Below, piece after piece: positions 46,722 to 49,802 of a DNA stretch of 64,000 nucleotides. The position numbers and the translations under genes were made by a program. The stretch spans positions 62,001 to 126,000 of the forward strand of contig MDYQ01000004.1 in the NCBI GenBank assembly GCA_003024175.1, read 5' to 3'. Position 1 is the stretch's first letter. Each line of letters opens with the position of its first letter. Source of the DNA: Planoprotostelium fungivorum (Eukaryota > Evosea > Variosea > Cavosteliida > Cavosteliaceae). A model generated the notes under the pieces. That model saw nothing but the letters and a program-made list of their open reading frames with translations. It made no database searches and had not been told where the DNA came from.

Positions 46722-47939
46722 TTACAAGACGCTCTTGGAAGGCAGGGCGGCGTGGTTGAGAGCGGCTCCGTTTCTCATCTCCTCCTGGACGATCTTGCTG
46801 TCCAATCCGTTACCGAGGTAACCGTAAGAGGCAGGGAGGGCCTCGACGAGAGATCTTCTCTTCAGTCCGTGAGAAGTGACGAGGTTCTCCGATGCAGATG
46901 TCATGCCGTAAGTCTGTCCTGCAAGGGGGGCGGCGAGACCAGTTTGGATGGTCTGAGAAGAGTAGGTGGCGCTCAGACGCTTTCCAGCCTCTCCCAAAAC
47001 GAAGCCTTGGGCCTCGAGGGCGGCGAGATCGCCTCCGATGAAACCTCTGTCTTGGACGATGGTGGTCGAGCGGAGGACGGTGGGGGCCTCGACGATCTTC
47101 TCGTAGATGGGCTGGGTGTTCTGGATGACGGTGGACTGGATGATGTCTCTCTCTAAGACAGGCTGGATCTCCTCGATGATGGTCTTCTTGATGACCTCCT
47201 GGACGATGGGAGCGTGGACGACTTGAGTGCGGGAGACGGCATCGACCGAGCGGCTGGCGGCGATGTAGTTCTCGGTGATGGCAGCACTTGCAGAGATTTA
47301 GAGTCTGACAGGTGCAAGATGATGGACTCACCCTCTCTCGACGACGGCCTCACGTCTCTGAGCGGGAAGCTCTCTCTGCTGGATGATGGTGGGCTGGATC
47401 TGAGTCTCGTGCAACATCTGGGTGACCTGCTTGACGTCGAGCTGCTCTCTCTCTCTGTAGATGATGGGCTGGATCTCCTCCTTCTGGACGGGGTGGATTC
47501 TCTCTTGGATGACGACCTCCTTCTGAACGGTCTCAACGATGGTGGGGGCGGCTCTGACCAGAGAAGCTCTCTTGGTTCCCTGGACGTAAGCACCCTGGTT
47601 GAGCATGGTGGACTGTCCGACAAAGTCTCTGGCATCGACCTTACCGTCGAAGTTTCTGTCCAGAGGGTTGTGGTGGACTCCAGAGTTGTTTCCCTTCAGG
47701 TCTCTCATGTCGACCTTGCCGTCGAAGTTTCTGTCCAAGGGGTTGTGGTGGACTCCAGCGTTGTTTCCCTTCAGGTCTCTCATGTCGACCTTTCCGTCAA
47801 AGTTTCTGTCCAGAGGGTTGTGGTGGTCACCTTGCTTTCCCATCAGCTTAGACTCGTGGTCGACGTAGCCGGTGGCCATCTTGTTGGCGAGGTTGGCCTC
47901 GAGCTTGTTGGCAACGTTGGAGTTGTTCAGGGCGGACAT
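46722..47939 (-). CDS. repeat protein with EF-hand-like loops and IIxE-rich tail
   Basis: Family not recognised; about 390 residues in two exons (intron about 47286-47331). The N-terminus is MSALNNSNVANKLEANLANK. Three tandem 25-residue repeats follow, each with HHNPLDRNFDGKVDMRDLKG. The 12 residues DRNFDGKVDMRD fit an EF-hand loop exactly (D1, N3, D5, G6, V8, D9, D12). The rest is built of charged beta-prone segments (VQKEVVIQERIHPVQKEEIQ; VIQNTQPIYEKIVEAPTV) like those of fungal and protist stress-associated coat or hydrophilin-type proteins, then a Ser/Ala-rich tail ending KSVL. There is no signal peptide. GC-rich, strongly biased codons suggest high expression. Calcium binding is inferred from the loop pattern only. 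Confidence 0.8.
47632..47860 (-). repeat. three 75-bp coding repeats
   Basis: Three nearly identical in-frame 75-bp units encode the HHNPLDRNFDGKVDMRDLKG repeats. The DNA is almost unchanged between units, with only a few synonymous differences, which points to recent amplification or gene conversion. Confidence 0.9.
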
Positions 47940-48410
47940 TTCGTTGTGTTGTTGTTGTTCGTGTGTGGTTGTGTGAGTTATGAAGGCGAGGAAGGGACAA
48001 TTGAAGATTCGAGTCGGTGAATTCAAGAGATTTGAAGGAAAATTGGAGGACAGTTTTATCAAGATGTTGCGCGATGATCTTGTGGGAAGATCGATGACAC
48101 CGTAATAGAAGGATCATTTGATTGGGTAGATAGAGATGTGGATGAGATCTCAGATGGATGTCTCAGACCAAGGCGAGACGTGAAGGTAGATGAAAGGTTT
48201 TGTGATGAACCGAAGCAGGTCGGACTGTGAATCATCTCACCTCGAAGTGGTCAATATGCCTCATCCGAGATGTGTTGTGATTCGAATCTAATCTCGTTCG
48301 TTGCAGATCAAAAAAACAGAAAGATACATCTATTGAATGAACTTGGAGTTGTTTGTGATTTGAGCTGTGTTGTCCACCGTCAGACTATTCGGAAAATCGT
48401 CTTCAATATA
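47940..48410. other. intergenic region, promoter side of the repeat protein
   Basis: About 470 bp with no supported gene. The first 100 bp upstream of 47939 are rich in GTTGTTG and GTGTG tracts and probably form the 5' UTR of the repeat-protein gene. Confidence 0.4.
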
Positions 48411-48417
48411 CGAAAAT

Positions 48418-48435
48418 TATCTGTTCTTATCAGTT
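48418..48435 (+). ncRNA. U2 snRNA fragment (branch-recognition / stem IIa side)
   Basis: An 18-nt exact match to the U2 core, TATCTGTTCTTATCAGTT, appears alone. The flanks do not continue the U2 sequence, so this is a decayed or chance-retained piece of a former U2 copy upstream of the array. Confidence 0.5.
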
Positions 48436-48455
48436 CAGTCTTGTTGTATAGATCG

Positions 48456-48508
48456 GATGCGCGCGCAAAAAATTTTCATTTTTCAAAAAGAGCCCCGGCG
48501 CGCGCATC
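48456..48508. repeat. GC-rich inverted repeat
   Basis: Perfect 11-bp arms, GATGCGCGCGC and GCGCGCGCATC, flank a 31-nt AT-rich loop. This could form a stable stem-loop in DNA or RNA. It lies upstream of the U2 array, outside any gene I can support. Confidence 0.7.
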
Positions 48509-48553
48509 ACGCTGCCCCAACCGCATGGACCCTCCTGTTTCCGCCTCGACTTG

Positions 48554-48568
48554 TCTTAGATCAAGGTA
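48554..48568 (+). ncRNA. U2 snRNA fragment (5' exon end plus intron donor)
   Basis: The 15-mer CTTAGATCAAGGTAA repeats the end of the first U2 exon (TTAGATCAAG) followed directly by a GTAAG donor, as in the two full copies downstream. Sequence before and after does not match. It may be a relic of a third unit. Confidence 0.4.
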
Positions 48569-48839
48569 AGAGCAATAGGGTATGAGTATATCTATCTATG
48601 TATCCTCCTACCTTCTAGAATGCACTTCCATTTTCCATCGATCCTCCCTCTCGAGACTCTCAACCTCTACCAATCGACGAGTAAGATCCACTGACTCCTA
48701 TACATCCATTCTTTTCCTCCGTCCACATTCATTTATCATTTCGATTATATGGATTACCAAGTACTCACACTGACCTTTCAGAGTGTCTATAACCTCTTTC
48801 TAACGCTACTGCAGGTGTCTCCGGACCGTTTGAAAGGCG

Positions 48840-48917
48840 GAGGGTTGTTATTCGGAGGCCCACAATTTTTCGCGGTCAACTTAACGGTCACCTGACACCG
48901 CGGGCACCCCAGGAAGC
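48840..48917 (+). promoter_or_regulatory. conserved upstream blocks of U2 copy A
   Basis: Blocks shared with copy B despite divergence between them are GGTTGTTATT, CCCACAATTTTTC, CTTAACGG, and immediately before the 5' end CCGCGGGCACCCCAGGAAGC. By position these are candidate snRNA promoter elements (proximal sequence element and start-site block). The assignment rests on conservation only. Confidence 0.5.
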
Positions 48918-49084
48918 ATCTTCTCGGCTTTTTAAAGCTTAGATCAAGGTAGGGTCGCGATTTCTCTTCACCACATCACATCATCATCACCCATCAGCAT
49001 TTCTGACTCGAAAACAGTGTAGTATCTGTTCTTATCAGTTTAGTCGACTGATAGCCCTGGGTACTCCAGGGCATCCGACTAAAT
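48918..49084 (+). ncRNA. RNU2: U2 snRNA copy A, intron-containing, 3' part absent
   Basis: Exon 1 (48918-48948) begins ATCTTCTCGGC and ends TTAGATCAAG. An intron-like insert (48949-49017) follows, then exon 2 with TGTAGTATCTGTTCTTATC and stem-loop II (CCTGGGTACTCCAGGG). The match stops at CTAAAT, just before the Sm site, where an N begins the next unit. The Sm site and stem-loops III and IV are therefore missing, and this copy cannot make a normal U2 RNA as assembled. Either it is a truncated copy or the assembly collapsed here. Confidence 0.9.
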
Positions 49085-49162
49085 NCTATGCACTGACCTT
49101 CTCAAGTGTCTAGAGCATTCAACTAACGCTAGCCCAGGTGTTTCAGGGCCCTAATCAAGGCG

Positions 49163-49239
49163 GACGGTTGTTATTAAAAACCCACAATTTTTCCCGGACT
49201 ACTTAACGGCTAGTTGACCCCGCGGGCACCCCAGGAAGC
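49163..49239 (+). promoter_or_regulatory. conserved upstream blocks of U2 copy B
   Basis: The same blocks as upstream of copy A occur at matching distances: GGTTGTTATT, CCCACAATTTTTC, CTTAACGG, and CCGCGGGCACCCCAGGAAGC next to the RNA start. Intervening bases differ between the copies, which supports selection on the blocks. Confidence 0.5.
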
Positions 49240-49500
49240 ATCTTCTCGGCTTTTTAAAGCTTAGATCAAGGTAGGGTCGCGATTTCTCTTCACCACAACA
49301 CATCATCATCACCCATCAGCATTTCTGACTCGAAAACAGTGTAGTATCTGTTCTTATCAGTTTAGTCGACTGATAGCCCTGGGTACTCCAGGGCATCCGA
49401 CTAAATTAATTTTTCTCTCGGGTGAGAGGGTCAACACCGGAGCTTGCGAAGGTGCCTCTTACACGGATGAATTCAGCATTGCACTGAAGCTGACTTTCGT
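49240..49500 (+). ncRNA. RNU2: U2 snRNA copy B, complete but split by an intron
   Basis: U2 is the spliceosomal RNA that pairs with the intron branch site. Exon 1 (49240-49270) carries the 5' U6-pairing region (CTTCTCGG), stem-loop I (GCTTTTTAAAGC) and GATCAAG. After a 69-nt insert, exon 2 starts at 49340 with TGTAGTATCTGTTCTTATC, which includes the branch-recognition GTAGTA and is identical to the human RNA over this stretch. Stem-loop II (CCTGGGTACTCCAGGG), a Sm site (TTAATTTTTCTC), stem-loop III (GGAGCTTGCG region) and stem-loop IV with the ATTGCA loop (TTCAGCATTGCACTGAA) follow. The mature RNA would be about 185 to 190 nt, the usual length. The 3' end near 49492-49500 is estimated from stem IV. 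Confidence 0.93.
49271..49339 (+). other. 69-nt spliceosomal-type intron inside the U2 snRNA gene
   Basis: The insert begins GTAGGG, ends AAAACAG, and has a branch-site-like TCTGACTC 17 nt before its end with C/T-rich sequence upstream. It separates GATCAAG from TGTAGTA, which are directly adjacent in U2 of other eukaryotes. The same insert is present in copy A (48949-49017), where I see one base difference. Its size and signals match the protein-gene introns of the window. Confidence 0.9.
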
Positions 49501-49802
49501 CCACCGTTCAAAAAATCAAAAGATACAAAAATGTAAGATAATCGTCTAGAAACGGTTTCACACACAAACAACGAGGGAAAATCACTCGTACAGCAAAAGT
49601 GAGTGGTGATCGAGATGAAGTGATCGGAGGCAGGTGAGGAGCCAGCAGGAGTGGCACGATGTGTTGAAGAGAGCTGAGATTCGGAGGGGAGGTGAGAGCC
49701 ATTATCGAGGAGAGCCACGGTGCGATCAGGAACGCCCATTGGTGAATGAACACGTTTTTGATCATCGTTCACCTCGATGGAGATCTCCCCACATTCAGGA
49801 GC

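Follow-up and report, generated by a model that had tools for sequence, protein, structure and literature searches.

How can a gene for U2 snRNA, a core component of the spliceosome, be interrupted by an intron of the kind that spliceosomes remove? The question is raised by a locus in a stretch of 64,000 nt from Planoprotostelium fungivorum (assembly GCA_003024175.1, contig MDYQ01000004.1, positions 62,001 to 126,000; hereafter the window, to which the coordinates below refer unless a contig is named). A first-pass annotation, made from the sequence of the window alone, had placed a 69-nt intron of spliceosomal type within a U2 gene, next to its branch-recognition sequence, and had presented the case as one from a non-fungal protist. 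Both statements were borne out, the former by the sequence itself, an Rfam match, the splice signals and nine genes that carry the insert, and the latter by the source of the DNA, a variosean amoebozoan. A search with one protein of the window yielded 15 proteins, five of which bear the name P. fungivorum; these five are its paralogues (52-70% identity), and one of them is encoded without a mismatch over 336 residues in the same assembly. An excerpt of a 2023 survey states that the deposited genome is really that of Protostelium aurantium (PMC10639083).

The complete U2 snRNA gene lies at 49240-49509 on the forward strand and is divided by a 69-nt GT-AG insert at 49271-49339. Exon 1 (49240-49270) comprises stem-loop I and ends in the U6-pairing segment GATCAAG. 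The insert runs from GTAGGG to CTGACTCGAAAACAG, with CTGAC ahead of the terminal ACAG; the putative branch point is an A situated 12 nt before the 3' end of the insert. Exon 2 (49340-49509) starts with TGTAGTATC and contains GTAGTA, stems IIa and IIb, the Sm site AATTTTT and stems III and IV, with stem names as in general use and in Rfam. The gene was matched by the Rfam U2 model (RF00004) with 83.3 bits (E 6.2e-15, cut-off 46), the 5' end of the model being misaligned into the insert. A snRNA promoter element, CCCACAAT, is present at 49181-49188 (forward strand), 59 nt 5' of the RNA start, and a 3' box, AAAAGA, at 49518-49523 (forward strand), 8 nt past the RNA end. The insertion point falls between G31 and T32 of U2, so that exon 2 reads T-GTAGTA and the insert lies 1 base 5' of the branch-recognition sequence, separating it from the U6-pairing segment. 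If the intron were retained, these two elements would stand 69 nt further apart and the RNA would presumably be unfit for the catalytic core.

A second U2 copy, 322 nt upstream on the same strand, is split alike and reaches only as far as a single N at 49085. It consists of the promoter element CCCACAAT (48859-48866), exon 1 (48918-48948), a 69-nt intron inserted at the identical site (48949-49017) and exon 2 up to the N (49018-49084); its partial Rfam match (49016-49071, 38.3 bits) is below the cut-off of 46. The N that separates the tandem copies has the appearance of an assembly gap or join, and for this reason the upstream copy was not called a natural truncation.

Further U2 genes were sought in the whole assembly (36.86 Mb, 471 contigs), with counts that rest on the best candidates and may be lower bounds. 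At least 15 U2 matches were found with Rfam, 14 of the 15 exceeding the cut-off; the exception is the upstream copy in the window, which ends at the N. A pattern for the interrupted U2 core recovered nine intron-bearing genes (family B), two of which are in the window; contig C387 holds four, and C23, C90, C94, C120 and C451 one each. The reversed pattern, used as a control in the same genome, gave no matches. The insert site is the same in all nine, and since the identical split recurs at the same site in nine places of the genome, it is not due to chance; the nine introns presumably go back to a single origin. The interrupted pattern gave no matches in viral contigs or in contigs of prokaryote genomes, which is little informative since neither set is eukaryotic. 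The genome-wide search for U2 genes free of the insert, which had been proposed as a check, succeeded: the pattern for an uninterrupted core identified six intronless, diverged genes (family A), three on contig C27, two on C123 and one on C234.

The nine B introns (seven distinct sequences, 65-69 nt) all have G at +1, G at +5 and a terminal AG. Position +2 is T in eight and C in one (C451, with a GC 5' splice site). A branch-type motif, CTGAC or CTAAT (CTRAY), is found in each, and its A is always exactly 12 nt before the 3' end. The features of an mRNA-type (U2-dependent) intron, that is GT/GC-AG ends, +5G and a branch motif near the 3' end, are thus present in 9/9 copies. U12-type introns start with ATATCC or GTATCC and have the branch consensus TTCCTTRAC. 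The B introns start with GTAGGG, GTGGGC, GTACGG, GTAGGC or GCACGC, none of which is the start of a U12-type (minor) intron, though the organism has a U12 gene and 265 minor introns are reported for the deposited genome in an excerpt of PMC10639083. None of these starts fully matches the observed U1 5' ends of the genome. For comparison, three introns from protein genes were inspected visually, too small a number for a consensus. The six U1 matches fall into two 5'-end classes, ATACTTACCTG (C82, C90) and ATACTCACCTG (C392, C231, C24, C25), as though adapted to splice sites of the forms GTAAGT and GTGAGT.

No inserts were found in the matches to U1 (six, two of which are slightly below the cut-off), U4 (three), U5 (six), U12 (one) and U6 (two over the cut-off), all of which span the Rfam models. 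Seven weaker U6 matches were inspected and, by eye, judged to be relics or noise. At C74:56400-56602, a U6 gene has another, diverged U6-like copy (63 bits) immediately after it, and incomplete pieces resembling U6 are dispersed over other parts of the genome.

The promoter element and the 3' signal of the window gene are common to it and other snRNA genes of the genome. CCCACAAT is located at -59/-60 in all nine B genes and at -58/-60 in all six A genes, and CCA(T/C)AAT lies between -57 and -63 in each of the 12 U1, U4, U5 and first-U6 loci scored in gene orientation, a count that leaves out four reverse-oriented loci and the second U6-like copy. AAAAGA occurs at +8 in the eight complete B copies; in family A it occurs at +9 in five genes, and the sixth has GAAAGA at +8. 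In dictyostelids, according to an excerpt of PMC7919456, ncRNA genes are preceded at a distance of about 60 nt by the DUSE element, and Class I RNA predictions that scored highly but had no DUSE at that place were not expressed. Given this precedent and the position of the promoter element, transcription of the window U2 gene most likely starts at exon 1.

Sequence conservation was compared among the eight complete B copies, leaving out the upstream window copy that ends at the N. Pairwise identity was 98.5-100% in the exons, 44-100% in the introns, 45-85% in the 200 nt upstream and 62-81% in the 100 nt downstream; exon 1 is the same in all nine copies. Minimum numbers of changes were counted on a tree built from the flanks (120 nt upstream, 60 nt downstream) and introns, with columns of more than two gaps skipped. 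Exon 1 had 0 changes in 31 columns and exon 2 had 7 in 170, whereas the intron had 64 in 68, the upstream flank 123 in 120 and the downstream flank 68 in 60. Per column, this is 0.04 changes for exon 2 vs 0.9-1.1 for the intron and either flank. The contrast in variable columns between exon and the remaining sequence was significant in six of six comparisons (Fisher p <=6.2e-9). Similarities of introns and flanks conflict between some copies: C451 and C23 share 94% of the intron and 71% of the upstream sequence, C451 and C120 share 47% and 85%, respectively. Gene conversion between B copies is therefore at work, so that the single tree used for the change counts is only approximate. Conversion could explain part of the exon identity. 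Recurrent conversion tracts that cover just the 31-nt exon between unlike neighbours are a poor explanation, and selection on the spliced product is a better one.

Stems I, IIb, III and IV were recovered in a consensus fold (50 pairs) of three joined B and three A sequences, and were also written out by hand. The two families differ in stems IIb and III and at other places. Five pairs are altered on both sides yet kept, one of them in stem IIb (C-G/U-A) and one in stem III (U-A/C-G), and the remaining both-side changes are found either in the IIb loop or away from the standard stems. Stem IIa, which the Rfam alignment pairs, was replaced by a longer-range pairing in the consensus fold, for which the alignment is 1 base off at this stem. 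When the joined B exons were folded at minimum energy, the branch-recognition region was paired. Inner stem IV has a mismatch at its base in families A and B alike. The unspliced precursor (278 nt) was more stable than its shuffles (z -3.2), which has no bearing on splicing.

Judged from these patterns of sequence, the window locus is very probably a working U2 snRNA gene of family B, the transcripts of which would need splicing. The first-pass annotation had named a condition for the opposite conclusion, namely that an intronless, expressed U2 gene elsewhere, combined with a lack of spliced reads from this locus, would make both copies in the window pseudogenes. Intronless genes do exist, but the conclusion is opposed by exons that are conserved between an intron and flanks that are not. 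Extended to the family, the argument would be that the insert killed an ancestral U2 gene, that the dead copy multiplied and that U2 is made from family A only, for which the six intronless genes provide the means. Dead exons would be expected to drift as the introns do, whereas exon 1 is unchanged between neighbours with about one change per column on either side; moreover, the promoter element, the 3' box, the splice signals and the branch distance are all kept, and some stem pairs differ from those of family A on both sides and yet still pair. Pseudogenes throughout family B are consequently improbable. Conservation restricted to the exons would also be explained if the RNA worked in two pieces, with exons 1 and 2 cut apart but acting jointly, as in fragmented ribosomal RNAs, and the insert site is indeed unpaired in the Rfam U2 model. 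Cutting by itself would have no need of splice signals, yet the seven distinct inserts in the nine genes retain G(T/C), +5G, the CTRAY A at -12 and AG, and we consider a two-piece U2 very unlikely.

The two families might also come from two organisms mixed in one assembly, such as the amoeba and a food yeast. Protosteloid amoebae are fed on red yeast, which counts in favour of such a mixture. So does an intron of mRNA type reported for U2 in a red yeast, Rhodotorula hasegawae, in a paper cited by PMC2586383. Against it, flanks of 3.2 kb around five A genes (those on C27 and C123) are inside the tetranucleotide range of the window (correlations of 0.852-0.905 vs 0.832-0.935 for window pieces) and similar in GC content (44.8-49.8% vs 46.2-51.5%). 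Two genomes should give two matches to ribosomal protein S6; a 61-residue piece of this protein has one match in the assembly, and it adjoins an A gene. The promoter and 3' elements, too, are common to both families. From the composition of the A flanks and the position of the sole S6 match, families A and B most likely share one nucleus, and a mixed assembly is very improbable.

For the working, intron-bearing gene that we favour, the following course is proposed. Transcription would begin about 59 nt 3' of CCCACAAT and yield a precursor containing the intron; the major spliceosome would excise this intron, and the joined RNA would act as U2 and enter snRNPs. The spliceosomes that process B precursors could carry U2 from the six intronless A genes, provided that these are active. 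It had been claimed from the window alone that the spliceosome depends on its own product. This is not supported as stated, since the six intronless genes have the same promoter element and U2 can therefore in principle be made without splicing; a partial self-dependence remains. With A-derived U2 available to spliceosomes there would be no bootstrapping paradox, and, because intronless U2 genes exist, the B genes need not be essential.

Introns in genes of the core snRNAs have served as an argument that spliceosomes insert introns into the RNAs with which they come into contact, and to our knowledge the examples are fungal. In R. hasegawae the U2 intron reportedly lies just downstream of the branch-recognition sequence (Takahashi et al. 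1993). Both cases would then be short spliceosomal introns near the branch-recognition region of a U2 gene, the one described here 1 base upstream of that sequence and the fungal one downstream. They differ further in that the present host is an amoebozoan, in which nine intron-bearing and six intronless, diverged U2 genes coexist. In fission yeast, an intron near the catalytic nucleotides of U6 snRNA is thought to be a product of reverse splicing (excerpt of PMC10484740), and U6 introns of other fungi are the subject of Canzler et al. 2016, a paper cited in PMC5832005. There, as is predicted here, a core snRNA needs splicing before use, although it is U6 that is interrupted in those fungi and U2 in the amoebozoan, both U6 matches over the cut-off being without an insert. 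Spliceosomal introns also occur in fungal U3 snoRNA genes (excerpt of PMC5832005), likewise small structured RNA genes, but U3 is not a spliceosomal component. A literature search covering titles and the starts of abstracts, with few subscription papers, retrieved no U2 intron outside fungi among the matches listed, which is weak evidence of absence. The position of the B intron would fit an origin by reverse splicing of an mRNA intron into the RNA core of the spliceosome. An amoebozoan U2 intron kept in nine genes suggests that introns of core snRNAs are not just a fungal oddity, and the coexistence of both kinds of U2 gene in one genome makes it testable whether a part of the spliceosome that itself has to be spliced is tolerated baggage or a control point.

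A DNA search with 48400-48620 revealed a conserved upstream element, here called element E, at 48455-48545 (forward strand), with the arrangement GCGCGCGC...AAAATTTTCATTTTTCAAAAA...GCGCGCGC. It is located upstream of all eight B loci (the tandem pair counted as one) and had no other match in the assembly at E 0.001; a stricter pattern recovered it at six of the eight. The element is a GC- and AT-rich block with a loop at -442 to -446 in seven loci; in the remaining locus the loop is at -382 and the right arm is lost. The upstream element missing from the second copy of the tandem pair, like the missing 3' half of the first, may fall in the N at 49085. Splice-like sites follow 3' of element E in an alignment of six of the eight loci, and an acceptor-like CTAA(C/T)G...CAGGT is found at -107 to -118, 3' of the element, in all eight. 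The element was considered as the start of a small spliced peptide and rejected, as the frame is broken, for example by a 1-base difference before CCCACAAT (six of eight loci, by eye). A role as an alternative first exon was likewise rejected: the end of the element in the window, TTAGATCAAG/GT, matches U2 exon 1, but the match is missing at some loci (alignment of six of eight loci).

A wider reading, which we regard as speculative and rather unlikely in its entirety, can also be put forward. One U2 class would be made directly and the other gated by splicing, with the intron tying the supply of B-type U2 to splicing capacity in a positive feedback; B-type U2, perhaps together with one of the two U1 5'-end classes, may serve a particular life stage, and the sites at element E may add a longer spliced transcript across the U2 promoter.

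Upstream of element E, on the reverse strand of the window (47328-48113), there is a gene with three 25-residue repeats, the loops of which are weakly EF-hand-like and below the Pfam cut-off. Relatives are found at many places in the genome.
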